Assembly (NCBI GenBank): GCA_947303625.1
Contig: CAMYYV010000009.1
Span: forward strand, 1 to 48,006
Direction: 5' to 3'
DNA from: an uncultured Bacteroidales bacterium
GTDB lineage: Bacteria; Bacteroidota; Bacteroidia; Bacteroidales; F082
DNA: 48,006 nt
The notes under the pieces are model-generated. The model was not told the origin of the DNA, ran no database searches, and was given only the letters and a program-made list of their open reading frames with translations. Below are positions 1-46,975 of this stretch, piece by piece (within the stretch, counting starts at the first letter, position 1; every line of letters starts with the position of its first letter). Both the position numbers and the translations under genes were made by a program.

Positions 1-1936
1 CGCTCACCTTGAAGGCAGGACAGAGCGTGCCACCCATCAAGTTCGACTTGCGGCAATCGCCCGAGCCGTTGCATTGCTCGATGCTGCACAACAAGGCATG
101 GAATTGGCTTTTGGCACCTGTGGCACCAGCCACTTTGCATTCGTCGAAGGCGGCTTTCCAATTATAGTACGTGTGATAGGTCCCTAAGGCTTGAGGTCCC
201 TGAGCCCGTCGAAGGGTCGAAGGGCTGTCTTTTCCACATAATTCCTTCTCAATAGCATATTGCTGGTCGACCTCAAACCGCAGCATGCTATCCATCGGCA
301 ACGTGTCGACGATCTTGTGCAAATTGAAGACTTGCAACGGGTCCCAACAGCGTTTCAGGTCTTTCATTAAGGCATAGACTTCGTCGCCATAGAGCAGCTG
401 GATGAACTCGCCGCGCAGCCGTCCGTCGCCATGTTCGCCGCTGAGTGAGCCTTTGTGTTTCTTGACCAACAAAGCAGTCTGATATGCTACCTCGCGGAAC
501 TTGCGTTTTCCATCGGCTTCTTTGATGTTGATGATGGGCCTCAAGTGCAATTCGCCTGTGCTGATATGGGCATGATAGACGCAATTCAATCCGAGTTGTT
601 CAAGCATTTTCGCGAAGTCGTCCATATAGTCTGGCAACCGTTCGGGGGCCACCGCCGTGTCTTCGATGACACTGATGGGTTTGGCGTCGCCTTTCATGCA
701 GGTGAGTAGTCCCAACCCGGCTTTACGCAGACTCCACACTTTGCTGATTTCATTGTCGTAAATGCGCGAACAAGCATACGCAAGCTGTTCGTCGTGAATT
801 AATGCTTTTTCCAATTGGTCAGCCACGGCATCAATTTCAGTCCTTGTCTCGCCGCGAAGCTCGATGATGAGGATAGCAGCAGGGTCGCCCTGCACGAAGA
901 AGCGGTTCTTTTGCTGCTCCATATTCAGTTTGCTGAGTTCCAGGATGTTGCGGTCCATCAACTCGACGGCAGAAGGATGATATTTCAAGGCAACCAAGTT
1001 GCCCAAAAAGCTCTTCTGAAGAGTGTCGCAGTGGGCGCATACCACCATTTTCTCTTTAGGCGGCAAGGGGTCGAGGTCGACTTTGATCTCTGTGATGAAG
1101 GCTAAGGTGCCTTCGCTTCCTGCCAGCACCTTGCAGAGGTTGACAATGCGTTCCTCAAGTGGTTTGGCGGCATTATGCAGGTCTTCGATGACCTCATCGA
1201 TAGCATAGCCGCACGAGCGACGACGCAGGCTCTTGTCGGGGTAGTTGTCCTCTATGAGGCGCACGGTTTTATCATCAAGAGCCCAGCGTATGAGTTGGGT
1301 ATAGATGCTTTTTATTAAAGAAGCGTCGGGAAACCGACATTCCATAGATTCCTCCCCCTCCTTATGCCCTCGCACGGAATGACATGGTATGTCGGTTTCC
1401 CAAAAACGGTGGCCAAATCGTGCTTCCAATTCACCGATGGTGTATTCCTTGAACTCTTCGATGCTGCCATCGCAAAGTACGCCACGGGCTTCAATTACAT
1501 GGTGTCGGGTGCTGCCATAGACCAAGGAATGCAGTCCGCACGAGTTGTTGCCGAACATGCCGCCGATACAGCAGCGGTTGCTGGTCGAGGTCTCGGGACT
1601 GAAGAAGAGGTTGTAAGGGGCTAAAGCGAGGTTCAATTCATCGAGGACGACACCGGGTTGCACCCTCGCCCATCGTTCTTCTTGGTTGATTTCAATAATC
1701 TTCTTAAAGTGTTTGCTGATGTCGACCACGATACCGCTTCCCACCACCTGTCCAGCGATGGATGTGCCGCCCGCACGGGGGATGAGGTGTGTCTTCTGTT
1801 TTTGTGCCTCTTGGATGAGGAAGACGATGTCCTGTTCGTTTTCGGGGAATGCCACCGCTTTGGGCACTTCGCGATAGGCTGAGGCATCGGTGGCATAGGC
1901 GATGCGATGGAGTGGATCCGTCAGCAGGGTGTACAT
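1..1936 (-). CDS. FAD-linked oxidase (GlcD/D-lactate dehydrogenase type) with Fe-S domain, 3' end outside window
   Basis: This is the N-terminal 645 residues of a large FAD-linked dehydrogenase; the C-terminus runs off the window. The start is the ATG at 1936, seven bases after the stop of the CapD-like gene, so the two are probably co-transcribed. The N-terminal part has the PCMH-type FAD-binding signature (residues near IPRAGGTSIAGQ, then FFSPETSTSNRCCIGGMFGNN). The middle part fits the FAD-oxidase C-terminal fold (VMxxH-like SGEHGDGRLRGEF). The last visible part, CNGSGDCRK followed by GTLCPAF, begins the ferredoxin-like Fe-S region found in fused D-lactate or 2-hydroxyacid dehydrogenases that donate electrons to a membrane or cytosolic acceptor. 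The substrate cannot be told. Two palindromic repeats are embedded in frame (1328-1401, giving IPCHSVRGHKEGEESMECRF, and 198-225, giving PSTLRRAQGP). The frame stays open through both, so the gene looks intact. Confidence 0.85.
   Translation of the reverse strand, partial: MYTLLTDPLHRIAYATDASAYREVPKAVAFPENEQDIVFLIQEAQKQKTHLIPRAGGTSIAGQVVGSGIVVDISKHFKKIIEINQEERWARVQPGVVLDELNLALAPYNLFFSPETSTSNRCCIGGMFGNNSCGLHSLVYGSTRHHVIEARGVLCDGSIEEFKEYTIGELEARFGHRFWETDIPCHSVRGHKEGEESMECRFPDASLIKSIYTQLIRWALDDKTVRLIEDNYPDKSLRRRSCGYAIDEVIEDLHNAAKPLEERIVNLCKVLAGSEGTLAFITEIKVDLDPLPPKEKMVVCAHCDTLQKSFLGNLVALKYHPSAVELMDRNILELSKLNMEQQKNRFFVQGDPAAILIIELRGETRTEIDAVADQLEKALIHDEQLAYACSRIYDNEISKVWSLRKAGLGLLTCMKGDAKPISVIEDTAVAPERLPDYMDDFAKMLEQLGLNCVYHAHISTGELHLRPIINIKEADGKRKFREVAYQTALLVKKHKGSLSGEHGDGRLRGEFIQLLYGDEVYALMKDLKRCWDPLQVFNLHKIVDTLPMDSMLRFEVDQQYAIEKELCGKDSPSTLRRAQGPQALGTYHTYYNWKAAFDECKVAGATGAKSQFHALLCSIEQCNGSGDCRKSNLMGGTLCPAFKVS
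198..225. repeat. Family B palindromic repeat (CCCTGAGCCCGTCGAAGGG type), in CDS
   Basis: The sequence CCCTGAGCCCGTCGAAGGG followed by TCGAAGGGC lies inside the FAD oxidase gene and is read on the minus strand as PSTLRRAQGP. The same unit occurs at 25351-25388 and 28091-28114. It sits in the stretch before the Fe-S motif, probably an exposed linker. Confidence 0.85.
1328..1401. repeat. Family A palindromic repeat with core ATGTCATTyCG...AGGAAATCTATG, in CDS
   Basis: The element has perfect 13-base arms, GGGAAACCGACAT and ATGTCGGTTTCCC, around a core that on the minus strand reads ATGTCATTCCG, a variable part, then AAGGAGGGGGAGGAATCTATG. The core matches that of the copy at 7390-7450, but the arms differ. 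It is translated in frame in the FAD oxidase. Confidence 0.85.
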
Positions 1937-1942
1937 CGCTGA

Positions 1943-3856: not shown

Positions 3857-3904
3857 TGTAAAAGGTCATTAGAACGCGCAATAATACAACTTTTTTCAAA
3901 TGTT

Positions 3905-5505: not shown

Positions 5506-6707
5506 TTTCTTCTGATTGTAAGAGAGACAGCTTCTGATTGTTGTTCACAGAACGTTTTGGTATCTTTGACGACGCAGGCCAGATAACCGCCTCCTCCTGC
5601 CCCTGGCATCTTCCATGCCAACACATCTTCCAAAGCGGAATACTTTTCGATGTAGTCTTCTATGGTAGGAGATTGCGGGTCTTCGCCCGCAATGACGTTC
5701 TTGGGGTGAATCATACCTGGAAACATGGCGGTCTGGGCGTCGAACGAGGCTTTGTATGCCGTTGCAAAAGCCGTTAAGTCCTTGTTCATGATGGCGTTCC
5801 AGCAGTCGTCGGCAGCCTTGGCCAAGGCTTTCACTTTGGGTTCGGTGATGTCTTTGCCTTCCACGACGGAGCAGCCTAGTTTGCGTGGTTCCATGGGAAT
5901 CATGACGAGATGGTTTTCGAGCCAGCTTAAGATCTCGTCGTCTTGGCAGGTCTCGATCTTGATGGGCCAATATAGCTTGTCGTAATAATGCCTTGCCAAG
6001 CCGGGCATGCAGATGCCGATGCTGTCCTGCGCCCCGCTGATGATGCCGTCGCTGCGCTCGGGGTCGTTCTCGAAACAGAAGACGAGTTTGGCGAGGGTCT
6101 CGGGGTCCATGTCGGGCAGGTGTAGGGGCCAGATGCGTCTGATCATGTTGCGCGTCGAAGTGGAGAGACCGCAGCGTTCGCGGATTTCAAAGGTAGGCTC
6201 GAGCGAGATGGTGATGGCCCAGCCGGGGGCGTGGCACGAGACGTAGGGTTGGTCGATCCAGGTGCCGGCGAGGTCGAGGCGGGTGGGAATTTGGCAGATG
6301 TCGCGTTTCAAGGCTGTCGACGAGCGGGCTTCAAGCCCATCGGAGGGAACACGTTGCAACACGATGTATTGGATGCCGCGCTCCTCGCAGAAACGGCGTT
6401 TCTCTTCCGATGCGCCGTCTTCGTTGACCACGAAGATGTCGGGTTTCAGGCGCTCGACGGTGCTGATGAAATCCATTACACCGTCGCCGTCGTTGATGAA
6501 TGCATCTTTTACGTAGCGGATGGCCTTCACCATGAAGAGGCGTTCTTGCTCGGGATAGAGCGTCTTGTGGTTCTTGTAGTGCAGGATGGTCTCGTCGGAG
6601 CCGATACCGACATAGAGGTCGCCATATTGCGCCGCCTGACGGAAAAACTCCACGTGGCCGCTGTGCAGCAGGTCGTAGCAGCCCGAGACAAATACTTTCT
6701 TGGTCAT
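5502..6707 (-). CDS. Bifunctional HxGH nucleotidyltransferase - GHMP sugar kinase fusion
   Basis: The 401-residue protein joins two enzymes. Residues 1-135 form a cytidylyltransferase-like domain with VSGCYDLLHSGHVEFF (the HxGH nucleotide-binding motif at H15-H18), PEQERLFMVKAIRYV, and RSSTALK near 128, which corresponds to the SSTxLK motif. Residues 138-401 are a GHMP kinase with RLDLAGTWIDQPYV, GLSTST, SGAQDSIGICMPGL and the glycine motif PGAGGGGY near 368. GHMP kinases of this branch phosphorylate C1 of fucose or heptoses, and the first domain could then make an NDP-sugar, possibly a CDP- or ADP-sugar. The order and the nucleotidyltransferase type differ from Bacteroides Fkp (pyrophosphorylase plus fucokinase) and from HldE (PfkB kinase plus nucleotidyltransferase). 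The first gene of the operon, it has promoter TATCTTTG at 6725-6732 and a short leader. A palindromic repeat (5664-5697) codes for VIAGEDPQSPTIED just before the glycine motif. Confidence 0.8.
   Translation of the reverse strand: MTKKVFVSGCYDLLHSGHVEFFRQAAQYGDLYVGIGSDETILHYKNHKTLYPEQERLFMVKAIRYVKDAFINDGDGVMDFISTVERLKPDIFVVNEDGASEEKRRFCEERGIQYIVLQRVPSDGLEARSSTALKRDICQIPTRLDLAGTWIDQPYVSCHAPGWAITISLEPTFEIRERCGLSTSTRNMIRRIWPLHLPDMDPETLAKLVFCFENDPERSDGIISGAQDSIGICMPGLARHYYDKLYWPIKIETCQDDEILSWLENHLVMIPMEPRKLGCSVVEGKDITEPKVKALAKAADDCWNAIMNKDLTAFATAYKASFDAQTAMFPGMIHPKNVIAGEDPQSPTIEDYIEKYSALEDVLAWKMPGAGGGGYLACVVKDTKTFCEQQSEAVSLTIRRK
5664..5697. repeat. Family F repeat (AGGAGATTGCGGG...CCCGCAATGA), in CDS
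   Basis: The unit AGGAGATTGCGGG, a TCTTCG loop and CCCGCAATGAC forms a hairpin with arms ATTGCGGG and CCCGCAAT. The same half-element is part of the larger intergenic palindrome at 31110-31195. Here it is read in frame on the minus strand within the kinase domain. Confidence 0.8.
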
Positions 6708-7363: not shown

Positions 7364-7696
7364 TTAATTCTGGTAGTATGTCATACCGAACCTTTCAGTG
7401 CATAGATTTCCTCCCTCCTTCGTCGGTCGAAATGACATGCACTGAAAGGTGAGAGTATCTAAGGTTTCCTGTGGGACATAGCTCCACTTGGTGCAGGTGT
7501 TGCAGTGGCGTGGTGTACGACGACGCCCCGGGACTTCTTTGGTACGGCAGGAAGACATGAAAACCGTGGTGAGTATTAATGCGAGGATTAGGGTTGTTTT
7601 TACTCCCCCTTGCCCCCTCTCAGAGGGGGATGGTCCCCCTTCTAAAGGGGGCAGGGGGGAGTGAAAAAACGCTCTTATTTTCATAATCTTTTTCAT
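7364..7696 (-). CDS. Small lipoprotein built partly from palindromic repeats
   Basis: I place the start at the ATG at 7696 (MKKIMKIRAFF), which overlaps the M23 gene stop as ATGA, giving 110 residues. The signal peptide is split: a positive n-region, then HSPLPPLEGGPSPSERGQGG, which is the translation of the C-rich palindrome at 7602-7662, then the hydrophobic core and lipobox (TLILALILTTVFMSSC). The mature part has a basic stretch and CNTCTKWS, a short motif I associate with small Bacteroidales lipoproteins. The C-terminal third (FQCMSFRPTKEGGNLCTERF) is the translation of the family A palindrome at 7390-7450. No usable start codon lies between the first repeat and the hydrophobic core, so the repeat must be translated if the protein is exported. 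Function unknown; a decaying gene is also possible. Confidence 0.62.
   Translation of the reverse strand: MKKIMKIRAFFHSPLPPLEGGPSPSERGQGGVKTTLILALILTTVFMSSCRTKEVPGRRRTPRHCNTCTKWSYVPQETLDTLTFQCMSFRPTKEGGNLCTERFGMTYYQN
7390..7450. repeat. Family A palindromic repeat, second copy, in CDS
   Basis: The arms ACCTTTCAGTGCAT and ATGCACTGAAAGGT are perfectly complementary and enclose a core (minus strand GTCATTTCGACCGACGAAGG, then AGGGAGGAAATCT). The core matches the copy at 1328-1401 but the arms are unrelated to it. It encodes most of the C-terminus of the small lipoprotein. Confidence 0.87.
7602..7662. repeat. Family C palindromic repeat (CCCCCT...AGGGGG), in signal peptide
   Basis: The outer arms are ACTCCCCCTTGCCCCCT and the matching AGGGGGCAGGGGGGAGT. 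Inside are two small hairpins, CCCCCTCTCAGAGGGGG and CCCCCTTCTAAAGGGGG. It is read in frame on the minus strand as SPLPPLEGGPSPSERGQGG. A shorter relative is at 25958-25993. Confidence 0.88.
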
Positions 7697-9066
7697 TGCG
7701 ATAACCAATTCGCCGGGTTTTGTCGGCTTTGTTCTTTCAGTAGTTCGAAGTGAATCTCGGTCTTTCCCTCGTTCTTGTTGGTGTGGACCGTGCCGATGTT
7801 TTGCTTGGTCTTCACCTTGTCGCCGCGTTTCACGGTGACGTTCTCAAGGTTGGAGTAGACCGTGAAGTATTCGCCATGGCGGATGATGACGACAGTGTTG
7901 GAGCCGGTGAGTTTGGTGACGCTGGTCACCTCGCCGTCGAATACGGCACGGGCCTTGGCGCCTTCGGTGGTGGCGATGTCGATGCCGTTGTTGGTCACCG
8001 TGACCTTGTTGGAGACTACCGAGGTGTGTTTTCCGTATGACGAAGATATGACGCCGCGTTCGACGGGCCAGGGCAGTTTGCCTTTGTTGCCGACGAAATT
8101 GGATGACAGTGTCTTCTCTTCGGGTGTAAGTGCCATACCTTTTTCTTTTGTGGTCGTAGTGGAGGTTGTGGCCTTACCTTTGTTGGCATTCTTTTTGGCT
8201 TCTTCCTTACGCCTTTTTTCAGCCTCCTCGTTGGCTTTTCGGATCTCCTCGGCGATGATGTCGTCAATGGCTTTTTGCAGCTTCTGTGCTTGCTGTTGCT
8301 TGTTCTTGATGTCTTGTTGGATGCTGCTTTCTTTTTTCTTGAGGTTGGCCACTTGTGTGTTGAGATCTTCTTTCTCGGTCTTTAGTGCGTCCTGCTGTGC
8401 CTTCTCGTCTTTCAGCAAGGCGGTTTGTTGCTCGCGAGCCAGTTGGCTGGCTTCCAACTCGCTGTTGATTTTTTGTTGGGTTGAGCTGATTTGTTCCATC
8501 TTCACCTTGCGGGCGTCGCTGAACTCTCGGATGTAGCGCAGCCGGCTGAAGGCTTGGTTGAAGTCCTTGGCAGAGAAGATGAAGCCGAGGAGGTCGTAAT
8601 GGCTGCGGTTCTTGTTGGCGAAGACGACCATCTGTGCGTATTCCTTCTGCAATTTGCTGAGGTCGGAGTTAAGGCTCTTGATGTTGCTTTGTCCCTTGTT
8701 GATTTCGTCGTCAAGGATAGCGATTTGCTCGTTGTAGGCTATGATGAGTTGCTCGCGTTGTTTGATTTTCTTGTCCAAGAGGTTGACTTCGTTGAGGGTC
8801 ATCTCCTTGTCCTTGGTGGTCTTTTTGAGTAACTGGTTGGCGGTCGAAATCTCTTTCTCTAACGAGTTGATTTCGCTTTGCAGCTGCTGTTTCGTCTTGC
8901 CTTTCGTTTTTTGGGCATAGGCCGGATTGAAGGAGAACAAGAGTATAATGAAACAAAGGACTGCGAGACTGCGAGACTGCGAGACTACGGGGCGTTTTGA
9001 AGTCCCGAAGTCCCGAAGTCCCGGAGTCCCGAAGTCTACTTGTCTCGTGTTGATTTCTATTCTCAT
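7693..9066 (-). CDS. Murein hydrolase activator/M23 peptidase with coiled coil (EnvC-like)
   Basis: The 457-residue exported protein has a long coiled coil (about residues 55-300, rich in K, E and Q: QLQSEINSLEKEISTANQLL and so on), a low-complexity linker (KATTSTTTTKEKG), and a C-terminal LytM/M23 fold (LPWPVERGVISSSYGKHTS, GIDIATTEGAKARAVFDGEV, VVIIRHGEYFTVYSNL). In the C-terminal motif the usual HLH-type ligands are not all present, as in EnvC, so it may activate amidases rather than cut peptidoglycan. The start at 9066 overlaps the DUF4292 stop (ATGA). The signal peptide is preceded by about 25 residues (QVDFGTPGLRDFGTSKRP...) encoded by tandem 8-base repeats at 8959-9036; no other start exists between them and the hydrophobic core. 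Confidence 0.85.
   Translation of the reverse strand: MRIEINTRQVDFGTPGLRDFGTSKRPVVSQSRSLAVLCFIILLFSFNPAYAQKTKGKTKQQLQSEINSLEKEISTANQLLKKTTKDKEMTLNEVNLLDKKIKQREQLIIAYNEQIAILDDEINKGQSNIKSLNSDLSKLQKEYAQMVVFANKNRSHYDLLGFIFSAKDFNQAFSRLRYIREFSDARKVKMEQISSTQQKINSELEASQLAREQQTALLKDEKAQQDALKTEKEDLNTQVANLKKKESSIQQDIKNKQQQAQKLQKAIDDIIAEEIRKANEEAEKRRKEEAKKNANKGKATTSTTTTKEKGMALTPEEKTLSSNFVGNKGKLPWPVERGVISSSYGKHTSVVSNKVTVTNNGIDIATTEGAKARAVFDGEVTSVTKLTGSNTVVIIRHGEYFTVYSNLENVTVKRGDKVKTKQNIGTVHTNKNEGKTEIHFELLKEQSRQNPANWLSQ
8959..9036. repeat. Family H: inverted arms of tandem 8-base units GACTnCGn, in signal-peptide region
   Basis: The left arm contains three tandem copies of ACTGCGAG, and the right arm has four to five copies of AGTCCCGA/AGTCCCGG. 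Since AGTCCCGA reversed is TCGGGACT, both arms are made of the unit GACTnCGn in opposite orientation, separated by GGGGCGTTTTGA. The arms pair imperfectly (about six of eight bases per unit). The element is translated in frame at the N-terminus of the M23-type protein. Confidence 0.8.
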
Positions 9067-12407: not shown

Positions 12408-12433
12408 AACTCTAAACTCTCAACTTTAAACTC

Positions 12434-12440
<7 letters not shown>
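12408..12440. repeat. Short direct repeat filling the dut-TPR spacer
   Basis: The spacer reads ACTCTAAACTCTCAACT then TTAAACTCTCAACTCTT, a tandem of a 12-14 base unit. The complement supplies the dut stop (AGTTGAGAG) and the purine-rich stretch before the TPR start codon. Confidence 0.6.
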
Positions 12441-12871
<431 letters not shown>

Positions 12872-12886
12872 GGCTATGGATTTCAA

Positions 12887-12940
12887 GATTTCAAGATTTC
12901 TAATTTAACTACGTTGAATACTTCGTATTTCAAGATTTGT
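12887..12940. repeat. Short AAATCTTG direct repeats between flippase and dut
   Basis: Three copies of AAATCTTG (minus strand) occur in the 58-base gap: two in tandem next to the dut start and one at the flippase end, where it provides the stop codon (AAA TCT TGA). Confidence 0.55.
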
Positions 12941-21920: not shown

Positions 21921-21995
21921 TAACCCTGACCATAAACCCTGACCCTGACCATTTCAACAGGGTGAAAAGTCAGGGTCAGGGTCATTGGTCATGGT
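21921..21995. repeat. Family E palindromic repeat (TGACCCTGACC arms), overlapping ybeY 3' end
   Basis: The left arm has TTAACCCTGACC, ATAAACCCTGACCCTGACC and the right arm GTCAGGGTCAGGGTCATTGG, TCATGG, enclosing the loop CATTTCAACAGGGTGAAAA. A second copy at 42392-42468 has nearly the same arms but a different loop. The last 14 residues and the stop of YbeY are encoded by the right arm. Confidence 0.87.
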
Positions 21996-22409
21996 TTGGT
22001 ACAATGCCAGACATATCTCCTCTTGGGCTCTCATCTCTTTCTGGTCTTCTTCGCTGTGGTCGTCAAAGCCGATAAGGTGCAACACACCGTGGATGATGAC
22101 GCGATGCAGCTCACTCTCATAGCTTCTGCCGAAAGTCTCGGCATTCTCCTTGATGCGCTCGGTGCTGATGCAGAACTCGCTCGAAAGCACGGTTTCACAG
22201 TCGGTCAAAGGAAAGGTTACGATGTCGGTATAGAAGTCGTGTCCGAGGCGTTCCTTATTGATTTCCAACAACTTCTCATCGCTACAAAAATAGTAGTACA
22301 ACTCCCCTATTGTCTTGCCGTGTCTTTGGGCCACTTTGTTGATCCACGCCTTGTCGTGTAGTGGGTCTATGGGTGGCATCTCTACATCCAATGTGTTGAA
22401 TCTGATCAT
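21954..22409 (-). CDS. ybeY: rRNA maturation endoribonuclease YbeY
   Basis: The 151-residue protein has the zinc-binding signature HRVIIHGVLHLIGFDDH, the three histidines of the catalytic metal site, and the upstream YTDIVTFPL motif. YbeY takes part in 16S rRNA 3' maturation and ribosome quality control. The C-terminal YQTMTNDPDPDFSPC is not part of the family: it is translated from the right arm of the family E repeat, which also supplies the stop. It sits between the DUF4175 gene (1-base gap) and mnmG, probably one operon. Confidence 0.93.
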   Translation of the reverse strand: MIRFNTLDVEMPPIDPLHDKAWINKVAQRHGKTIGELYYYFCSDEKLLEINKERLGHDFYTDIVTFPLTDCETVLSSEFCISTERIKENAETFGRSYESELHRVIIHGVLHLIGFDDHSEEDQKEMRAQEEICLALYQTMTNDPDPDFSPC

Positions 22410-22410
22410 C

Positions 22411-25400
22411 TTAGTGTGTGTTTTTCTTCATGTAGTATTCGTTAATCTTGTTCTGGTAATAGGGAGCGTATTCAATCGGGTTGGTCTTCAGGAACTCTTG
22501 GTTTTTCTTCATTGACTCCTTATAGAGGAGGTCGTTTATCTGTCTGTCGAAATGCGAGCCTTTGTATTCGTTCGACTTGCGTTTCTCCTCTTGTTCGCGT
22601 TTCTCTTGGGCTTTTTGCGATTCTAGCATCCTTGACTCAATCTTACGGCTGCGTTCAATCATCTGTCGGTTGATTCTTTTATTCACGAGGTCTTCTTCCA
22701 GTTTCTCCATGTCCTTGATGATTTCGTTGAAGCCGTCGTCGCCGATCTGTCCATTTTCTTTCATGTCGTTGAGCATCTGTTGCATGCCTTGGCGAAGCAT
22801 CTCTTGTTCGGCGGCCATGCGTGCAAACTCCTCACTCATCGAATTGGGTGTTTGTTGACCCTTTTCCATCTGCTCTTGCATCTTTTGGAGCTGCTCGCTG
22901 AGTTGCTGTTGCATTTGTTGCATCTTTTGCATGCTTTGCTGGCCTTGTCCCTGTTTAGGATTAGAACACGACATTGGCATGCCCATGGCATCCATACTGT
23001 TTTCCATGTTCTCCAACGACTCAGCCAGCATCAGCGCCAGGTTGTTCATCGACATCATGGCGGTCTGCTGATGGCGCGTGGCTTGCGACAGCTTCAGGTC
23101 GTTGAGTTGTTTCATCGCGTTTTCGGTCTGATTCTCAATGGTGTGCAGCTCATCGAAGACGAAGTTCTGGATCATAGGTTGGCGCATGGCCATGCTACGC
23201 AAGGAGTCGCGGACCATATTGAAGTTGTCGGCCACCTCTTTCTGATGGATGATCTTTTCAACCAACGATGGGTCGTCGGTGCGCATCTTGCCAATTTCGG
23301 TCATCAGGGCCTCTTGTTCATGCGAAGCTTGTACCACGTTTTCAAGCAGAATGCGCATCAAATGTGCGTCTTCGGCCATCTGTTGCATGCCGCCCATCTG
23401 CATCATCGACATCATGTTCTGTGCCATTTGCTGCATCTTTTGGCCTGCATTCTGTTTGTTTTGTTGCGACTGTTGTTGCTGGTTGTTCTGCTCGTTCTGC
23501 ATGGCATCTTGCAGGTCTTGGTCGATGCTCTCCTGCATCTCTTGGTCTTTCTCCATGTCGAAAGGCTGTTTTAAGTCTTGGTTTTTCTCCAGCAACTGAT
23601 CGAGTTCATCCATCATCTTGTCGAACTCCTCCTTGGCTTCTTCGGCTGTTTTTTGGTCGTTCTTCTCCCCTTCTTTATCTTGATTTCCAGCCTCTTGCTT
23701 CTGCAATTCTTCGCCTAGTTTATCTAATTTGTTGGCCAAGTCGCTGAGGTCTTTCTCCATCTTAAGCTGTTCCAAAAGTGCCATGTTGCGGTCGAGGAGA
23801 TTCTGCATCGACTGGTTGTTTTTCTTGATGTCCTGCATCATCTGCTGCATCTGTTCGCGTGGCATCTCTTCAAGGAGTTTGTCGATTTGTTCCAACATCT
23901 TTTGCAGCTCCTCTGGGAATACCTCGTCGAATAGCTTGTTGATTTGCTCCTGTTTCTTGATGAGGTCTTCGTTGCCTAGGTTGTGTTCTTTCATGAATTC
24001 CGACAGCTTCTCTTGTTCTTGCTGTAGCTTGTTCCATTCTTCCTGGATCTGTTGTTGCCGCTCCAAGAGGTCTTTCATCTTCTCCTTGTCGGCCCAATCC
24101 AACTCCTTCTTTTGGATGAGGTCTTGCAGCATCTTCTCGATTTCTTCTTGCAGCTTGTCGGCCTCTTGCGACTTCTCTTGCAGACGTTCCATGATGTCGT
24201 CCGATTGCTGGTCGGCGATGCTGTCCAAGGCCGATTCCGAAGGTTTATAGTAAGTGAAAGTCTCTGAGCGCTTCGACTTGGGCCCGTGGAAACCATCGTT
24301 GTCCCAGACCACAAAATATACCTCCATGTTCTGACCTGGCATGATGCCGAGGCTGTCCATGTTGAACTGGTAGAAGAAAGAGGAGCGTGTCTGCTTCATG
24401 TCCAAGGGCACAGTCTTGACGATGTTCTTTTCTTTGGGTTCCTTCACGATGCAGTTGAAGGTCAGGCGGCTGAAGCCGTAGTCGTCGGTGACGAGGCCTG
24501 AAAAGTAGACATTGGTGGAGAGCTGTTCGTCGAACGACTCCACGCGGATGTCGGGGTAAGCGTCGGGCAGCACGTCGACGGAGAAGGGTAGGGGATCGAT
24601 GCTTTGGTTCCAAGTGTTCTGCACCTGCACCTCGAATTTGGTGGACTGTCCGGCCACGAATTGGTATTCAAAGACATCGTCATTGGCCGTCAGGTCGGTG
24701 GTCAGCGTGTCGCGGGTGACGGACATCAGCTCGGTGTCGCGGGTGGTGAAGCTGAAGATGAGTTGGGTGCCTTGGGGCACGATAAGCCTTGTTTTGCCTT
24801 CTAAGGTCTCATTAGTGCGGTGGATGTAGGCGGGATAGCGCAAATCGCAGCGGTAGGAGAGTAGGGTAGGGTTGGGGCGCACCGTGATGTGCAGGGGACG
24901 GCTGGTGTATTCGCCTCCGGTTACGTTGAAGTCCAAGTCGTTGAACAGATTCTTGAAGGTGTAGCTGAAATCGTTGGCCGAGCCACGGGTCATCAGCTGT
25001 TGCCCCAGCTCGCTCTTCACATAGAAGGCGTCGGGGATGCGGTCGCCGGTGACGCGGATGTTGAACTTCACCTCCTGGCCTTGGGTGGTCTCTATCTCGT
25101 CCTGCTCGATTTCAACCTGATAGGGTAGGGGTTTCTCGAAATGCTGCTCATAGTTAACGATGCGTTGCGTGGGCTGCACTGCAAAAGAGGGCAGAAAGAC
25201 CATCAAGGCTATTAATATAAGGAGCGAACCAAAGAAGATGCCCAAGTACTTCAAATTGCCGCGCAAGTCGACAGCATCGGAGAAGCGGATAGGGGAGAGG
25301 CGGGCACTACGCTGCTCGATGGTGGCGGCCAACAAAGCGTTATCATCTGAGGTCTCTGAGCCCTGAGCCTGTCGAAGGGTCGAAGGGCCGACATTATTGG

Positions 25401-25957: not shown

Positions 25958-25993
25958 CATTTCCCCCTTCTAAGGGGGCAGGGGGATTAAATG
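25958..25993. repeat. Family C repeat, short form, in tRNA leader
   Basis: CCCCCTTCTAAGGGGG followed by CAGGGGG is half of the element at 7602-7662, bounded by CATTT and AAATG. It lies between the tRNA promoter and the tRNA 5' end. Confidence 0.8.
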
Positions 25994-27626: not shown

Positions 27627-29621
27627 ATGAATACGCAAGAATTGATCATTGGTTATCTGCTGCCCATTGCGGCTACCATTGCCATCCTTTGGTTGGTGTA
27701 TCGCCTGTTGTTCCGCAACAGCAACCGCTTGATGTTCAACCGTTATTTTTTGCTGACGAGCATGCTATTGGCTTTGGCCATGCCATTGCTCGGCTTGCTT
27801 TCGGGTTTGGAGTCGCCGCAGATGGTGGAGTTGAAACAAAACATGTTTAGCGGAACCATGCTCCATGAGGTCGTTGTCACCCCCGACGGGCAGCCTGTGT
27901 TACCCGAAGTGACAGTGACCACCAGCACGCAGTCGCATTTCAGTGTGTGGCAAGTCATCGGCGGCATCTATTTCTTGGGTGTCGGCGTGATGACGCCGCT
28001 GTTCCTCATCAAGTTGGTGAGACTCATGGCGCTCATCATCCGCTCGCCCAAACGCAAGATGGATGGCTTCACGGCGGTGTATCTTTCGGCGGTCCCTGAG
28101 CCCGTCGAAGGGCCGCAAAGAGGATCTTTCTCCTTCTTCCGTTATGCCTTCTTCCCAAGCGAAAACGTGGATCCCGATATCTTACGGCACGAGATGAGCC
28201 ACATTGAGCACCATCATTCGTGGGACATCCTCTTCGCCGAGGTGATGATGATCTTGCAATGGTTCAACCCCTTCATCTATCTGTACAAGAAGGAGTTGCA
28301 GAGCCTTCACGAATACCAAGCCGACCGCGACGTGGTGGCCACCGGCGTTGACAAAAAGAATTATATGATGCTGATCCTGCAGCAGTGCACGGCTGTCGAC
28401 TTCAGCGGAATGAGCAATAACTTCAGTTTAATCCTTACCAAAAAAAGAATCAAGATGATTACAAGAAACGAAAAGGCCAAGGGCCTCTGGTGGAGGCTCT
28501 TGGCTACATTGCCAGTGTTGGCGATTCTGCTGATTGCCAACACGAAAGTCGCGGCACAAGAACAAAAGACAGATGTGCGAATCGTACATGAAACAGATGC
28601 GCTGCCTTTAAACGCAGACTCTTACCAAATCGTGATGTACGAATATGAAGGACAGGAAAAACTGCCTTTCAACGACACGGTGATCTATAATCCAGACGGC
28701 TCCTATTCGGAAGTCAAGCGAGTACAAGACATCGACCCTGAAACAAACAAACCCTTCACAAAGGTTCTAATTTCTTCGTATGATAAAAATGGAGAGCCTG
28801 CCAAAGGCTTTCACATCCAAACCATGCCCAGAGAGGACGACATTAAAGAGTTTAGAATCACAGCCAATGAAGGTTTCACTTATCCCGCTATCATCAAGGA
28901 TGAACAAAGCAACGACAGCATCTACCAAATTGTTGACGAAATGCCCGAATTTCCTGGCGGTGAAAAAGCCTTGATGGATTATATGTCCCAAAACGTCAAA
29001 TATCCAGAAGAGGCCAAGAACAAAAACATTGCTGGTCGTGTGTTCATCAGTTTTGTTGTCGAGAAAGACGGTAGCGTTTCCAATGTGAAAGTGTTGCGTG
29101 GCATCGGCGGTGGCTGTGATGAGGAAGCCGTCCGAGTGATCAAAGGCATGCCGAAATGGAAGCCTGGCATGCAAAAGGGCAAGCCAGTTCGTGTGAATTT
29201 CCAGATGCCTTTCGTGTTCAAACTGGACGAGAGCGCGGCAAGCAAGAACGGTCTTATCAACAACACTTACATGGGCAAGGAAACGGGCACCAAAGACGGA
29301 GTCACTTACACGATGGAGATGACGATGGAATTTGAAAGCAACACTGCGGGTTATTTCGTTATGACTCTGACTTCGCAGAAGAAGAATGGAAAACCACAGG
29401 TTGAATTTGAAGATGTGGGTTTGCCCTTCACCTATACCTTTGACGGCAAATCATCGGGTTCCATCCAGCCCACGAATCCTGATGGCAGCCAGTTGGGCGA
29501 TGAGCCGATGGCTCCTTATGGTTTTATTGTCAATAAGGATGGTTCCATCCAAGTCAATCTCTATGATATGAAAGAAGATATCGGTGTGGAGAAAATGGTG
29601 TTCAAGAAGGTGGTTAAATGA
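27627..29621 (+). CDS. M56 (BlaR1-like) peptidase with TonB C-terminal domain
   Basis: 664 residues. Helices near 8-25, 38-58 and 108-130 precede the M56 zinc site HEMSHIEHHHSWD (188-192) and HEYQAD. A further helix is near 290-310. A TonB-like domain follows (MPEFPGGEKALMDYM near 441, then YPEEAKNKNIAGRVFISFVV), and then a C-terminal extension (MGKETGTKDGVTYTMEMTM...) that I do not recognise. The M56-TonB combination is common in Bacteroidetes. It should sense an envelope signal and cut BlaI. A family B repeat (28091-28114) is in frame in the loop just before the catalytic region (SAVPEPVEGPQRG). Confidence 0.9.
   Translation: MNTQELIIGYLLPIAATIAILWLVYRLLFRNSNRLMFNRYFLLTSMLLALAMPLLGLLSGLESPQMVELKQNMFSGTMLHEVVVTPDGQPVLPEVTVTTSTQSHFSVWQVIGGIYFLGVGVMTPLFLIKLVRLMALIIRSPKRKMDGFTAVYLSAVPEPVEGPQRGSFSFFRYAFFPSENVDPDILRHEMSHIEHHHSWDILFAEVMMILQWFNPFIYLYKKELQSLHEYQADRDVVATGVDKKNYMMLILQQCTAVDFSGMSNNFSLILTKKRIKMITRNEKAKGLWWRLLATLPVLAILLIANTKVAAQEQKTDVRIVHETDALPLNADSYQIVMYEYEGQEKLPFNDTVIYNPDGSYSEVKRVQDIDPETNKPFTKVLISSYDKNGEPAKGFHIQTMPREDDIKEFRITANEGFTYPAIIKDEQSNDSIYQIVDEMPEFPGGEKALMDYMSQNVKYPEEAKNKNIAGRVFISFVVEKDGSVSNVKVLRGIGGGCDEEAVRVIKGMPKWKPGMQKGKPVRVNFQMPFVFKLDESAASKNGLINNTYMGKETGTKDGVTYTMEMTMEFESNTAGYFVMTLTSQKKNGKPQVEFEDVGLPFTYTFDGKSSGSIQPTNPDGSQLGDEPMAPYGFIVNKDGSIQVNLYDMKEDIGVEKMVFKKVVK
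28091..28114. repeat. Family B palindromic repeat, in BlaR1-like CDS
   Basis: TCCCTGAGCCCGTCGAAGGG followed by CC, read on the plus strand as VPEPVEGP. It is in the opposite reading orientation to the copies in the FAD oxidase and DUF4175 genes. Confidence 0.87.
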
Positions 29622-29666: not shown

Positions 29667-29761
29667 CGCTTCGCGTCATTGCGAGCGCAGCGAAGCAATC
29701 CAGAAAAATGGTTTTGTCCCCTGGATTGCTTCGTCGTTCCTCCTCGCAATGACGCGAAGCG
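29667..29761. repeat. Family G REP-like palindrome (CATTGCGAGCG...GAAGCAATCC)
   Basis: Outer arms CGCTTCGCGTCATTGCGAG and CTCGCAATGACGCGAAGCG are perfectly complementary. Inside them, GAAGCAATCCAG and CTGGATTGCTTC pair. It lies between convergent genes, a typical REP position. Open frames across it give the recurrent peptides LRAQRSNP and RGGTTKQS and are not genes. Confidence 0.92.
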
Positions 29762-30430: not shown

Positions 30431-30533
30431 TTGGCTTCTGGCTTTTGGCCTTTGGCTACTGGCAGTCCCAACAGAAGGAAAGGCTTTCCCTTACCCAGAG
30501 ACTGCCAGCAGCCAATAGCCAGTTGCCAGAAGC
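30431..30533. repeat. Family I: inverted arms of tandem TTGGCnx/TGGC units
   Basis: The left arm is TTGGCTTCTGGCTTTTGGCC then TTTGGCTACTGGCAGTC, a run of related 6-7 base units; the right arm is GACTGCCAGCAGCCAATAGC then CAGTTGCCAGAAGC, its rough complement. The loop (about 32 bases) is CCAACAGAAGGAAAGGCTTT and onward. It lies between the nitroreductase and the HYC_CC_PP gene. Confidence 0.8.
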
Positions 30534-31109: not shown

Positions 31110-31195
31110 CCTCATTGCGGAGGAACATCCGCAATCTCCTGCGCGGGAAGGTGTTCCTAACGCTTAGGAGATTGCGGGTCAAGCCCGCAATGAGG
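31110..31195. repeat. Family F full palindrome (cruciform)
   Basis: Outer arms CCTCATTGCGG and the matching CCGCAATGAGG, with inner arms CCGCAATCTCCT and AGGAGATTGCGG; the right half repeats the unit at 5664-5697. It lies in the HYC-TonB gap. Confidence 0.88.
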
Positions 31196-31230
31196 CCAAA
31201 AAACAAAAACAACCCTAAACAATTATCATC

Positions 31231-33470: not shown

Positions 33471-33498
33471 GTAGAGACGCAAAATGTTGCGTCTCTAC
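33471..33498. repeat. Family D palindrome (GTAGAGACGCAAAA... CGTCTCTAC)
   Basis: GTAGAGACGC, AAAATGTT, GCGTCTCTAC is a perfect dyad after the TonB receptor stop and before the Sel1 promoter. Relatives at 34735-34807 and 46949-46975. Confidence 0.88.
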
Positions 33499-34508: not shown

Positions 34509-36257
34509 ATGAAACGCTTTGCTTGGATAGGTATCTTGATTTTGTTTGTTTTTGCGGCTTGCGACACCACTACGCGTGAGGCACGCCGCATGGTGAAGCG
34601 TGCCGAGCGGTTGGCCGACACCTTGCCTGACAGCACCGTGCGCCTCATCGACAGCGTATTGCGCATGCCTGTGCGTTTCGGTGAGCGCGAGCGCATGAAT
34701 ATGGCCTTGTTGCAGGCCGAGGCCTTGTTTGGCTGTAGAGACGTTTCCCGAAACGTCTCGAAAAACGACGATGGTTTGTTGGGAGACGTTTCAGGAAACG
34801 TCTCTACCCTTTCGCCTATCATGGACGACGATTTCTTCGACGACCAAGCCCACATCTCCACCAGCCCTGAATTGGAGCGAGCCTCTGCCTATTATGCCAG
34901 GAAGGAGGACTACGGCAAGGCCGCCCACGCCGCCCTCTACAGCGGTTTTGTGCAGCAGAACTACAACGAGAAGGAGGCCGCCATGCACTCGTTCAAGGAG
35001 GCCGAGCAATATGGCATGATGGCGGGCGACAGCCTTACCGTGGCCCGGGCGGAATACAAGATGGGGAAGATGCTGTTTGATGAATACATGGAGCAGGAAG
35101 CCCAAGACATGTTTCGAAAATCCAAGAAGTTTATTGGTAACCATCACACCGAAAGAGCATCTATCGAAAATAGCGAAGCCGTAATCTATATCCTGATGGG
35201 GCAATTTGACGATGCCGATTCCTGCCTTCAACGTGGAATGATTCTGGCCGAAAAATGGCATTCCGACAAAGTCATTCGTAAAATCCACAACAACTATTCG
35301 GTGCTATACCGCCTCCAAGGCAAGTATGACCAAGCCGTTGATTGCCTGCATCGAATGATGGACAACCCAAATCTTGGCGAAAACGATGTGTTAGTGCTGA
35401 ACTTGAACTTGGGCAATGTGTATTTTGACAAGAAAGAGATGGATTCAGCCGCCAAATACTACCAATTTGTAGAATTGGCGCTACCTAAGGTCAACGTAAA
35501 AAAAGAGACTGTACTTGCTGCATACGAAGCGCTTTACCGTTTCGCAGAAGACCAAAACGACGACTCTTTAGCCTTACAATATCGTGAATTGCACGAAAAG
35601 GGATTGTATGATTTGATGGTCCTGCGGCAAAAACAGACTATCTATAGAATTCAAAAGCAATTCGACTACGAAAGCCTTCAGAATGAAATGAACAAAAAGC
35701 TCCTTCAGAGACAACGCCTTATCACCTTGCTCGCAGTATTCACCATCATTGGTCTCGGGGCATTGGCAGTTTCGCAAATCCGACTGGCAAGAACACGCAA
35801 ACACGAAGCCGAAACCAACGCCAACCTGTTCCACTTCATGCAACAGAACAAGGCTTTGGTGGAAAGCAACATGAGGCATGAGCAAAAGGTGGAGGACGCG
35901 GCCCAACAACTTTCAGACATGCTTCATAAAAGGCTCATGGCAATGCTGAAGCTCGACTATTGCCTTAAGACCCCGATAGACAAGATTGCCGCCAAGGACT
36001 TGGAAAAAGAAGTGTTCGGCGACGGCGACCATTGGGAAGCCGTGAAGGAGGTTCTCGATTCGCTCTATCCCGGCCTGTGGGAAACCATAGGACTGAAATA
36101 TCCTGACATGGATGAGATGGAGCGTCGCGTATGCATGCTGTCGCGCCTCAAATTGTCGCGTCTGAGCGAAGCCGCCCTGCTCGGGGTTAGCGTCAGCGTG
36201 CTCGACAAGCTTCGCACCAAGGTCCGCAAGACGGTGGAACAAGAAGAAACACGATAG
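34509..36257 (+). CDS. TPR - transmembrane - HTH-like regulatory protein
   Basis: 582 residues. The N-terminus has a lipobox-like signal (ILILFVFAAC), then TPR-like repeats (FDDADSCLQRGMILAEKW, YDQAVDCLHRMMD and others) from about 130 to 370, a coiled coil, a membrane helix (RLITLLAVFTIIGLGALAVSQI, near 410), a second coiled coil, and a cytoplasmic end (DMDEMERRVCMLSRLKLSRL then SEAALLGVSVSVLDKLRTKV) resembling the degenerate HTH of Bacteroidetes TPR regulators. I infer a membrane-bound transcription factor that senses in the periplasm. A family D palindrome (34735-34807) is in frame near residue 80 (CRDVSRNVSKNDDGLLGDVS). The island downstream is its probable target. Confidence 0.77.
   Translation: MKRFAWIGILILFVFAACDTTTREARRMVKRAERLADTLPDSTVRLIDSVLRMPVRFGERERMNMALLQAEALFGCRDVSRNVSKNDDGLLGDVSGNVSTLSPIMDDDFFDDQAHISTSPELERASAYYARKEDYGKAAHAALYSGFVQQNYNEKEAAMHSFKEAEQYGMMAGDSLTVARAEYKMGKMLFDEYMEQEAQDMFRKSKKFIGNHHTERASIENSEAVIYILMGQFDDADSCLQRGMILAEKWHSDKVIRKIHNNYSVLYRLQGKYDQAVDCLHRMMDNPNLGENDVLVLNLNLGNVYFDKKEMDSAAKYYQFVELALPKVNVKKETVLAAYEALYRFAEDQNDDSLALQYRELHEKGLYDLMVLRQKQTIYRIQKQFDYESLQNEMNKKLLQRQRLITLLAVFTIIGLGALAVSQIRLARTRKHEAETNANLFHFMQQNKALVESNMRHEQKVEDAAQQLSDMLHKRLMAMLKLDYCLKTPIDKIAAKDLEKEVFGDGDHWEAVKEVLDSLYPGLWETIGLKYPDMDEMERRVCMLSRLKLSRLSEAALLGVSVSVLDKLRTKVRKTVEQEETR
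34735..34807. repeat. Family D double palindrome, in CDS
   Basis: Two adjacent dyads, GAGACGTTTC-CC-GAAACGTCTC and GAGACGTTTC-AG-GAAACGTCTC, with GTA and TAC at the outer ends and a 24-base spacer. Read in frame in the regulator. Confidence 0.88.
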
Positions 36258-41066: not shown

Positions 41067-41114
41067 TTTGGCACTAAAATTGCGGCGAAAGCCCGCGTAC
41101 AAAGAAAAAAAGCG

Positions 41115-41122: not shown

Positions 41123-41179
41123 CAATTTATTTGCCCCATTGGAGTTATTAGAGAAAAAACAAATAAAAATTCTATAAAA

Positions 41180-42387: not shown

Positions 42388-42391
42388 AACT

Positions 42392-42468
42392 TTGACCCTG
42401 ACCAATGACCCTGATCCTGACCTCCGTTGATAGCGGATAGTCAGGGTCAGGGTTCATGGTCAGGGTAA
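42392..42468. repeat. Family E palindrome, second copy, inside LRR operon
   Basis: Left arm TTGACCCTGACCAATGACCC then TGATCCTGAC, right arm GTCAGGGTCAGGGTTCATGG then TCAGGGTAAA. Loop CTCCGTTGATAGCGGATA, unlike the loop at 21921-21995. It lies between the second and third operon genes. Confidence 0.87.
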
Positions 42469-42471
42469 ACG

Positions 42472-43311
42472 ATGATGAAAGCTTATATTCGACATATCAC
42501 GCTTCTGGCCACACTTCTCCTTTGGATAGGCAACAGCATTGCCCAGACGATTGGCGATTTTAAGATGGATGAGACCGAGCTCTACGCCATGACTAAGCAG
42601 ATGGGGCAGTTCATGCGCCGGTTCAATTACGAGGAAGACCAGTTTGGCAACCAGCTCAACCCCAAAGACCCTAAATACCGCAGCAACGAGATGCGCCGCA
42701 AGTCGCTGCCCATCCTCTTCGACCAAGAGAGATACGGCACGCAGACTGAGCTGCAGCGCTATTTCATCGAAGACGTCACCAAGGGCGACTCCACCTATAT
42801 GACTTTCCTCGGTGGCAGGTGGTACTCCGAGGTGTCGTGCACTTTCCGCTACAACGGACGCGATGTCAACGTGATCCTCTTCCTTGCCATCGAGAAAGAG
42901 GGCTTGGGGTCAAAATGGGTGCTTACCAATGTGTATTTCTCGGAGTTCAACAAGCTCTTCCCCAATGGCGAGATGGCCGAACGCGAGAAGCACTTCCTGC
43001 ATCCCATGAGCCACGAGCTTGACTTCATGAACATCTACAAGGCCTTCCAGGACCCTGACGTCATCGAATACTATGCCTCCAAGGAGTTTCAACCCGACTA
43101 CCTGACCTTGTTCTTTTACGAAATCAAGAAAGGCAAATTGATCTTCCAGCATGTCGACGGTGTCAAGTTCCACGTCCTTCAAATCAAGGACTGGTATTTC
43201 GAGGTGTCGTGGTTCAACCGCTCGGGTCTCAACTCGGGCTGGCTCATGTCGAACGTCATCTATATGCCTGAAAAGGAAAAAATCAACCTCATCAAATTCT
43301 ATCAACCATGA
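42472..43311 (+). CDS. Exported protein of the LRR operon
   Basis: 279 residues with a signal peptide (HITLLATLLLWIGNSIAQ). I see RYFIEDVTKGDSTYMTFLGG, then GRDVNVILFLAIEKEGLGSK, and FHVLQIKDWYFEVSWFNRSG near the C-terminus. The pattern resembles the small domain in its neighbours. I do not recognise a family. Its stop overlaps the LRR gene start (ATGA). Confidence 0.77.
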   Translation: MMKAYIRHITLLATLLLWIGNSIAQTIGDFKMDETELYAMTKQMGQFMRRFNYEEDQFGNQLNPKDPKYRSNEMRRKSLPILFDQERYGTQTELQRYFIEDVTKGDSTYMTFLGGRWYSEVSCTFRYNGRDVNVILFLAIEKEGLGSKWVLTNVYFSEFNKLFPNGEMAEREKHFLHPMSHELDFMNIYKAFQDPDVIEYYASKEFQPDYLTLFFYEIKKGKLIFQHVDGVKFHVLQIKDWYFEVSWFNRSGLNSGWLMSNVIYMPEKEKINLIKFYQP

Positions 43312-45860: not shown

Positions 45861-45881
45861 TCCAATCCAGTGTTGGGTATG

Positions 45882-45938
45882 ACGCCTTTGGGCAAGGTTG
45901 CCGAGCTTGTCGGAGCAACCGTCCAAAGGCGTTTTTTT
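45882..45938 (+). terminator. Rho-independent terminator of the LRR operon
   Basis: ACGCCTTTGG and CCAAAGGCGT form the outer stem; GGTTGC and GCAACC pair inside; a run of seven T follows. Confidence 0.9.
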
Positions 45939-45953
45939 ATTCTGTGTTTTCCT

Positions 45954-45984
45954 TTGACTTGAAAGATAATATTTTGTACTTTTG
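45954..45984 (+). promoter_or_regulatory. Promoter (TTG ... TACTTTTG) of ptb-buk
   Basis: TTG at 45954-45956, 20-base spacer, TACTTTTG at 45977-45984, then about 50 bases of leader to the ATG at 46036. Confidence 0.75.
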
Positions 45985-46035
45985 CAAAATCTATGAAAAT
46001 TTTGAATATTAAATTTTAAATTTAAATCTATCAAT

Positions 46036-46938
46036 ATGGAAATCAGAAAATTAGAACAAATGTTCGAGGTTTTGCGCAGCAAACCCAAGAAACGTCTTGT
46101 GGCCGCCTATGCCAACGACGACCATACCATCTGCGCGGTGAACGCCGCCGTTAAGGAAGGTCTCATCGAAGCTACGCTGCTGGGTGACCAGAACGTCATC
46201 GCCGAGGTGTGCAAGGCCGAGAATATCGACATCAACAACTTCAAGGTCATCCATGAGCCTGTCGACGTGAAGGCTGCCGCTATGGCTTGCGACCTCATCA
46301 ACGCTGGCGAAGCCGACATCCTGATGAAGGGCCTGCTGCCCACCGACAAGTACATGCGCGCCATCCTCAACAAGGAACGTGGCCTTTGCCCGCCCAACGT
46401 GACGCTGGCCCATGTCGCCGTCATCGAGAACCCCAACTACCATAAGCTCATGGTGGCTTCTGACTGCGCCATCATCCCGCTGCCCGACATCAAACAGAAG
46501 CAGCAGTTGCTCAAGTATGTGACCTCTGTGGCTACCAAACTGGGTGTCAGCTGCCCGAAGGTCGCCATGGTGACCGCCACCGAGCAGATGAGCGCTGGCA
46601 TCCCCGCTTGCGTCGATGCTGCCATCATCGCCAAGATGGCTGAGCGTGGCCAGATCAAGGGCTGCATGGTGGAAGGCCCCATCAGCCTCGACCTCGCCTT
46701 GGATGCCGAAACCGCTGCCATCAAGGGCATGAAGAACCCCGTGGCTGGCGACGCCGACTGCCTCGTGTTCCCCAACCTCGAAGCCTCCAACGTGTTCTAC
46801 AAGTGCTGCACCAAGTTCGACAAGAGCGAGGTGGGTGCCATGCTGATGGGTGCCAAGGTGCCTTGCGTGCTGTCTTCGCGTGGCGACACGTCCAAGACGA
46901 AACTGTATTCCATCGCCTTAGCGGCCTTGATGGCATAA
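46036..46938 (+). CDS. ptb: Phosphate butyryltransferase
   Basis: 300 residues of the phosphate acetyl/butyryltransferase family. Motifs: LVAAYANDDHTICAV at the start, ADILMKGLLPTDKYMRAIL, HVAVIENPNYHKLM, KVAMVTATEQMSAGIP, and ending GDTSKTKLYSIALAALM. Together with buk it converts butyryl-CoA (or related acyl-CoA) and phosphate to acyl phosphate and then to acid plus ATP, a substrate-level phosphorylation. Length and the buk neighbour favour Ptb over Pta. Confidence 0.92.
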   Translation: MEIRKLEQMFEVLRSKPKKRLVAAYANDDHTICAVNAAVKEGLIEATLLGDQNVIAEVCKAENIDINNFKVIHEPVDVKAAAMACDLINAGEADILMKGLLPTDKYMRAILNKERGLCPPNVTLAHVAVIENPNYHKLMVASDCAIIPLPDIKQKQQLLKYVTSVATKLGVSCPKVAMVTATEQMSAGIPACVDAAIIAKMAERGQIKGCMVEGPISLDLALDAETAAIKGMKNPVAGDADCLVFPNLEASNVFYKCCTKFDKSEVGAMLMGAKVPCVLSSRGDTSKTKLYSIALAALMA

Positions 46939-46948
46939 TATATGGTTT

Positions 46949-46975
46949 GTAGAGACGCGATAATTGCATCTCTAC
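46949..46975. repeat. Family D palindrome between ptb and buk
   Basis: GTAGAGACGC, GATAATT, GCATCTCTAC is a near-perfect dyad. It lies in the 62-base ptb-buk gap. Confidence 0.87.

Follow-up and report, generated by a model that had tools for sequence, protein, structure and literature searches.

Palindromic elements lie in frame inside conserved genes of a Bacteroidales genome, and one of them, which we call beta, has outer arms that pair with each other and differ from site to site. At the cleanest site, in an oxidase gene, the ancestral gene already had the sequence of the left arm, and the right arm repeats that sequence in inverted form, a feature that a first-pass annotation of the same DNA had missed. 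This mirror copy of the host gene beside the element suggests spread by a slip of DNA copying and not by a transposase. The window, by which we mean the whole stretch of DNA analyzed, is contig C9 (48,006 bp) of a 2.12-Mb genome that is 77% complete and comprises 135 contigs. Our sample consisted of the window, stretches of the same genome totaling 400 kb, genome-wide pattern searches, and orthologous loci. In our best explanation, the genome is that of a ruminant-gut Bacteroidales that hosts several kinds of nonautonomous palindromic elements. A gene for a 1121-aa protein in the window has 41 related loci in named genomes, nearly all of them herbivore-gut Bacteroidales or Bacteroidia MAGs; these include "bacterium F082," which the NCBI taxonomy names Candidatus Alcium sp. 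F082.

Hairpins scoring at least 13 numbered 42 in the window plus 400 kb, a count that takes in short-loop, terminator-like hairpins, and 0 in Markov-1 resamples. Exact matches in the 2.1-Mb genome numbered 48 for the core of B, 41 for D, 10 for the strict form of A (beta), and 43 for TGGCNNN x4 arrays, with a control count of 0 for each. E, F, G, H, and I had further copies within the sampled stretches of the genome. Matches to C in those stretches were confined to the window (4, both strands counted), and C was seen again at some orthologous loci. Over the 24 same-genus genomes searched, copy numbers ranged from 0 to 73 for B, 1 to 69 for D, and 0 to 53 for TGGC. The inverted repeats listed in the first-pass annotation are present and repeated in the genome, with tens of copies for B and D and no single-copy case where this was tested, and several kinds do coexist in one genome. 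Its count of at least eight unrelated families, however, was too high. A, F, and G have in common an unpaired GTC, an AT-initial stem, and an unpaired C(T/C) tail, and the sequence of F and G is CGTCATTGC..GCAATC(C/T), with an unpaired end tag as in a CGTC-tagged REP. On the basis of the common GTC and stem start, we take A, F, and G to be one putative superfamily, the CGTC-tagged REPs. E, H, and I are alike in architecture, with arms built of 7- to 8-base tandem units. Judged by sequence, the families appear to reduce to about five kinds (A/F/G; E/H/I; B; C; D). A search of the window and of loci L142, L147, L251, and L161 against Rfam returned a tRNA as the sole match above the gathering score, so the palindromes were set aside as a candidate Rfam RNA family.

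Insert-free homologues were found at all seven in-gene sites compared, and for this reason we regard the palindromes at these seven as insertions; C also lies in a small lipoprotein gene (5' part, 7597..7667, from a hairpin scan) and I at the start of an EnvC-like gene. As had been annotated, the palindromes are in frame and the frames stay open. The refuting case named in the first-pass annotation, the same residues at the same place in homologues from distant species, did not occur at the sites tested, and the empty homologues contradict ordinary protein sequence. The GlcD/YdiJ-like oxidase gene holds B at about residue 575 (195..224, minus strand; site B_198, from sequence and homologue comparison), with 8 filled and 7 empty among 15 other genes. 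It also holds A (beta) at about residue 183 (1328..1401, minus strand; site A_1328; core at 1344-1385, with locus-specific arms), where 5 of the 14 other genes covering the site are filled and 9 are empty. An empty ancestor would fit the state of the two most diverged oxidase genes, L076 and L077 (62-63% identity), both of them empty; this set of genes is all from the same genus, with no outgroup. F (CGTC-type; 5668..5697, minus strand; site F_5667) lies in a nucleotidyltransferase/GHMP-kinase-like gene, for which 28 loci comprised 5 with F (our own counted), 1 with a heptamer tandem array, 1 with another short insert, and 21 that were bare. The A (beta) copy in the 3' part of the small lipoprotein gene (7390..7450, minus strand; site A_7390) sits within remnants of another copy; 16 regions were fetched, and 4 of the 15 that aligned are filled (our own counted) and 11 empty. 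B was found in 17 of 35 genes at its site in the 1121-aa gene (25361..25379; site B_25358), which we take to be DUF4175-like, the domain search having given no model. A gene encoding a TonB C-terminal domain also carries B (28094..28112; site B_28094), and 15 of 17 genes are empty there; this gene is presumably M56-like, although the search gave the TonB domain. At the D pair in a BT3442-like TPR gene (34735..34807; site D_34735), gene copies from six relatives, some of them perhaps paralogues, skip about residues 77-99, the match stopping at residues 76-78 and restarting at 100-101.

Different kinds of element can occupy one site. E, a tandem-unit hairpin, spans the 3' end of ybeY (21922..21996). 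Of 35 relatives, 24 are empty at this site; among the other 11, CGTC dimers occur in 2, B dimers in 5, and tandem-unit hairpins in 4. In the tandem-unit hairpins at this site (window, L024, L026, L034, and L051), the unit varies by species (TGACCCT, TGACTAT, and TGACCAT), and both arms of each hairpin agree. At one site in Mfd, 20 genes carried beta (7 genes, L230-L236), CGTC elements (L237-L239), a palindrome CGGCTGCCAC..GTGACAGCCCTAC (L238, L239, and L241), heptamer arrays (L240, L242, L243, L245, and L246), or a CATCCC..GGGATG palindrome (L244), while L247-L249 had no evident repeat. We infer that the presence of different kinds at the same site reflects selection for tolerant loops and not shared targeting: in-gene copies would be in frame because insertions anywhere but in tolerant loops are lost, and unrelated kinds would therefore accumulate at the same codons. 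The housekeeping enzymes AroA, AroB, Mfd, and PrmC would then evolve via repeated in-frame insertion of unrelated repeats into the same tolerant loops. The remaining copies in the window are C adjoining a tRNA gene (25963..25985), the intergenic copies of D (33471..33498 and 46949..46975) and E (a tandem-unit hairpin, 42392..42469), and two intergenic pairs of CGTC-type copies in opposite orientation, one of G (29667..29761) and one of F (31113..31197).

The beta core is conserved and about 41 nt long (ATGTCATTCC-N(12-34)-GGAATCTAT), and its outer arms, of about 5-20 bp, pair with each other and vary from site to site. Beta has an unpaired TGTC, but there are stems on both sides of the tag; because the AT start of the stem is present but the inner stem is short and the loop long, we file it as a CGTC variant, whereas F fits the CGTC stem/loop form by eye. 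Arm scores of at least 7 were obtained for 33 of 38 distinct cores (several of them orthologous copies) versus 3.4% of cross-paired arms. One of the 38 has no arm, and L112 holds a beta without arms; pairing reached 19/20 at L149, 19/21 at L099, and 15/15 at L204. CGTC matches in 40 genomes of the same genus gave 43 rows, which come from 30 loci of a longer list and in some cases repeat one locus. Of these rows, 28 scored at most 3 and have unrelated flanks, and 15 scored 7-18, all of them of the beta form; the 99% point of the cross-pairing null, which includes duplicate loci, was 13.5. DNA folds compared with shuffles had z values of -5.1, -5.1, and -7.8, and for one AroB stretch the margin over shuffles was weak (-1.8). 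Among 394 further genomes drawn from the phylum, five of them from the same order and none from the genus, 3 had one strict beta match each, all without arms. Six of the 10 strict copies in our genome lie in conserved genes (oxidase, AroA, AroB, Mfd, PrmC, and TIGR01212/MnmL). By NCBIfam, AroB, PrmC, and TIGR01212 scored over their cutoffs, a relative's AroA scored under (256 of 287 bits), and the Mfd identity rests on a 268-aa part. Nested elements, each with its own arms, occur at L142, L167, L168, L170, and L176 and probably at L181-L183. AroA is filled in 10 of 20 genes, with differing inserts in both orientations. AroA at L086/L141 has two palindromic inserts in one gene, and relatives' matches skip query residues ~50-95.

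The arms of the oxidase element are GGGAAACCGAC. The closest empty oxidase gene (L071) reads TTTTTGGGAAACCGAC|CATAAT, and in the filled genes this left flank is followed by the core and then by GTCGGTTTC. The left arm matches L071 at 11/11 positions and the seven empty genes at 7-11 of 11; the inverted arm, present in filled genes, matches the 7 empties tested at 5-7 of 11, which is chance level. At L067, only three host bases were copied at this site. In AroA (L149), the paired arm includes the codons E-A-L. In AroB, where 6 of 20 genes are filled with two elements each, the codons L-S-K-A-S are mirrored. The right arm of AroB is matched at 14/14 in the insert-free gene L256, which could be an excision product; the other 13 of the 14 empties match at 7-12 of 14, so that their host arm is near chance or diverged and not clearly above its inverse. 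In a radical-SAM gene (12 of 20 filled), filled copies have Q-A-L-E left of the core and its inverse after the core, with A-L-E repeated. The host arm (7-10 of 12) and its inverse (7-8 of 12) are hardly apart at the DNA level in the empties, and Q-A-L-E was shown to be host by protein alignment. The host arm and its inverse cannot be told apart from the AroB and radical-SAM empties alone, and a host origin of the arm appears clear only at the oxidase.

Arms matched better within species than between species at 4 of 5 sites. The permutations, of 2000, that reached at least the observed mean were 14 for the oxidase, 2 for radical SAM, 9 for AroA, and 0 for AroB, the last of which mixes two elements per gene (11 rows, 6 loci); the core pattern used caught 6/8 AroA loci and 8/9 radical-SAM loci. 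At the fifth site, Mfd, own and cross pairing were no different (8.43 versus 8.38 of 14; 1080 of 2000 permutations), and the arm sequence was not seen in Mfd genes without beta. Arms were also compared across sites: in 378 pairs from 28 flanks typed by hand, with AroA and AroB entered more than once, 29 share at least 8 of 12 positions (shuffled mean 1.0, maximum 5). An GCTTTAGAAAGC group takes in arms from AroA (L149), AroB, radical SAM, and three other loci, and the oxidase arm lies outside it. Since the arms of different sites are alike beyond shuffles, some arms may have been inherited with the element or may guide it. This likeness and the Mfd result weaken the idea of uniform de novo arm copying at every site.

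We favor, at slightly under an even chance, an origin of the beta arms by fold-back (template-switch) synthesis at or after insertion. The element would fold as a hairpin during replication, and the nascent 3' end would switch template to copy the newly synthesized strand, in what is called fold-back or quasipalindrome synthesis. The 3' end would then go back to the first template, sometimes recopying the flank to yield the pattern L-E-L'-L. Host flank would thus end up inverted on the element's other side, giving site-specific arms, and the same process may later keep the arms matched. For beta we infer template switching, a hairpin intermediate, this timing, and the lack of a dedicated transposase. 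Template switching would cover the mirror copy of the flank, the L-E-L'-L pattern, uneven arm ends, nesting, the lasting match of the arms, and the lack of a linked transposase. That template switching creates and maintains hairpins is stated in part of PMC8794818, and passages there and in PMC6649704 provide precedents in quasipalindrome correction and template-switch hairpins. An arm that mirrors its target would preserve a physical record of the insertion event and would link the spread of REPs to template switching in replication, a link testable in laboratory strains.

The clustering of arms from different sites (29/378 pairs), the GCTTTAGAA-like host codons common to AroA, AroB, and the radical-SAM site, and Mfd genes that lack both beta and the arm would all be expected if the arms were the element's own and a hairpin with ready-made arms inserted by homology, with no copying. 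We consider this possible but unlikely: the closest cross-site pairs do not include the arms of the oxidase, the lipoprotein, L099, or L106, and the pairing at L149 extends through host codons past the shared motif. A little less likely again is arm-capture homing. Here a mobile hairpin that lacks its own transposase would take up host flank as an arm by fold-back synthesis, and this arm would steer the next insertion toward similar sequence, as at the GCTTTAGAA-like sites of AroA, AroB, and the radical-SAM gene; if true, the palindrome rewrites itself wherever it inserts and adds in-frame decoration to housekeeping enzymes. It is distinctly improbable that the stem is useful as an RNA or DNA structure and that, once a plain insertion has occurred, compensatory substitutions under selection maintain the pairing of the arms. 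The covariation of arms between species at four sites and the strong DNA folds in 3 of 4 stretches agree with such a role, but it does not account for an oxidase arm that inverts preexisting host codons, and other CGTC copies in the genus persist without outer arms. Insertion into preexisting palindromes is highly improbable. Although some REPs lie inside conserved palindromes in other species, according to one section of PMC3733652, the chance-level match of the inverted arm in the seven oxidase empties tested contradicts preexisting palindromes as targets at that site.

Fold-back synthesis also has to be weighed against movement of the elements by a Y1 (RAYT-like) or other transposase, with arm copying secondary, which we judge improbable. 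B and Y1 counts correlate (rho 0.54, p 0.006, n 24), and foreign transposases have been suggested as movers of CGTC elements elsewhere (in part of PMC3733652). However, six of the 8 genomes with at least 8 copies of GTCATTCCG..GGAATCT had no match to PF01797; these six have 9-29 CGTC copies, and one PF01797-free genome is 99% complete with 29 copies. Over 40 same-genus genomes, 29 of which had PF01797 matches, CGTC copies and Y1 counts had a nonsignificant rank correlation of -0.19 (p 0.25). Correlations with Y1 counts were not clear for D (0.34, p 0.10) or TGGC (0.17, p 0.42) in 24 genomes, and three genomes with 3-5 Y1 matches had no B. CGTC copies are abundant where PF01797 finds no match, which fits the lack of a dedicated transposase alongside. 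None of 20 Y1 loci, taken from B-rich genomes and our own, had a B, CGTC, D (GTAGAGACG), or TGGC motif within 0.9 kb; the nearest were B at 1.4 kb in two loci and CGTC at 1.0 kb in one. The first-pass annotation rightly saw no RAYT gene in the window. Its conclusion that the mover lies elsewhere fared less well: the one Y1 transposase gene found in our genome is 134 bp from another palindrome, CCCCGTAGGGG, and 6/8 of the CGTC-rich genomes gave no Y1 match. A RAYT/Y1 mover of the CGTC, D, and TGGC elements in the genus is not supported, B being left aside.

CCCCGTAGGGG lies within 0.22 kb of the Y1 gene in 4 of the 20 loci. At six Y1 loci, inverted repeats were found on both sides (L210 and L216), on one side (L213 and L229), or on neither (L219 and L225), and L219 has a TTAGC tandem hairpin ~0.9 kb from the Y1 gene. 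Repeats like CCCCGWAGGGG or TCCCGTAGGGA are close to the Y1 genes of L229, L210, L213, L216, L215, L217, and L228; these genes are perhaps a TIR-associated transposase of the group.

Rickettsia palindromic elements, reportedly described by Ogata in 2000 and 2002, are in-frame palindromes in functional genes, as here, and in-frame insertion with empty homologues was likewise found here. The resemblance to them drawn in the first-pass annotation holds for the tolerance of insertions in coding regions, but it is in part a matter of membership: the CGTC-tagged REPs include Rickettsia RPE-4 and RPE-6, along with Neisseria dRS3, in the relevant part of Di Nocera 2013 (PMC3733652). Other passages of that paper already describe CGTC and GTAG REPs inside genes of several species and give the CGTC form as an unpaired CGTC/TGTC/CCTC at one end, an AT-initial stem of 8-9 bp, and a loop of 4-5 nt. 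Like these REPs, the elements here have an unpaired GTC tag, an AT stem, a short C-rich tail, in-gene copies, and no linked transposase. Beta differs in that its loop is longer than the reported 4-5 nt, its tag is inside a longer stem, and its outer arms vary by site and copy the host at the oxidase. RPE repeats are reported to lose identity over time (in a portion of PMC6649704), whereas beta arms stay matched across diverged species. The coding palindromes of Nematomorpha mitochondria are also matched inverted repeats in coding genes for which template switching was proposed, but the same portion of PMC6649704 describes them as the genes' own inverted repeats, while a dispersed core element is a feature of beta. 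D resembles GTAG-tagged REPs/REPINs with RAYT in being a short dispersed palindrome that starts with GTAG, but its GTAG is paired with CTAC and none of the Y1 genes at 20 loci has it within 0.9 kb. A RAYT gene flanked by the repeat, a REPIN trait, was not seen for motifs B, CGTC, GTAGAGACG, and TGGC at the 20 Y1 loci. We file the set as CGTC REPs and their relatives; in open-licence PubMed Central, we found no report of a bacterial palindrome flanked by an inverted copy of its target and no description of the beta variant's signature.

Tandem units are the building blocks of E, H, and I and of the arrays K and L. In the window, H consists of TGGCNNN arrays placed face to face (30434..30533), I of facing octamer arrays GAGACTGC / AAGTCCCG (8959..9036), and K of a heptamer array AACTCTN (12409..12442) that was absent from the first-pass list. 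Over 1.27 Mb, arrays numbered 34 for period 7 and 9 for period 8 (resamples 0), and 1, 3, 4, 2, and 4 for periods 5, 6, 9, 10, and 11 (versus 0, 0, 0, 0, and 1). Of 26 period-7/8 arrays in 448 kb of our own genome, 16 had a partner, meaning an array with the same unit in inverted orientation no more than 170 nt away (control 0). Relatives gave 11 period-7/8 arrays in 816 kb, 2 of them with a partner (control 1). The STRR of cyanobacteria are mostly intergenic heptamer arrays with a patchy spread. The TAACTGA heptamer repeats are, like the arrays here, mostly intergenic, patchy, and found in Bacteroidetes as well, according to part of MacGregor 2015 (PMC4679880). Compared with both, many different units occur here, and 16/26 arrays face an inverted array of the same unit.

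Several hairpins have arms that are tandem arrays of a fixed 4-mer plus variable bases (TGGCNNN, TTAGCNN, GAATGCN, and TGACCNN). Such fixed-4-mer hairpins occur at L003, L012, L013, L015-L017, and L019 and at window positions 30434, 21922, 42392, and 8959; in the hairpin at 30434, the variable bases mismatch between the arms. Arrays of AACTCTN, CAACTGA, and TTTCAAGA adjoin a dUTPase-like gene (window 12409-12442 and 12881-12900). Heptamer or octamer arrays lie in frame inside relatives' Mfd genes (the five listed above) and a nucleotidyltransferase/kinase gene (L122). A further palindrome family, TGTAGGGCTGTC..GGCAGCCGCAT, is present in relatives (L022 at 6162, L032 at 82, and L056 at 6462).
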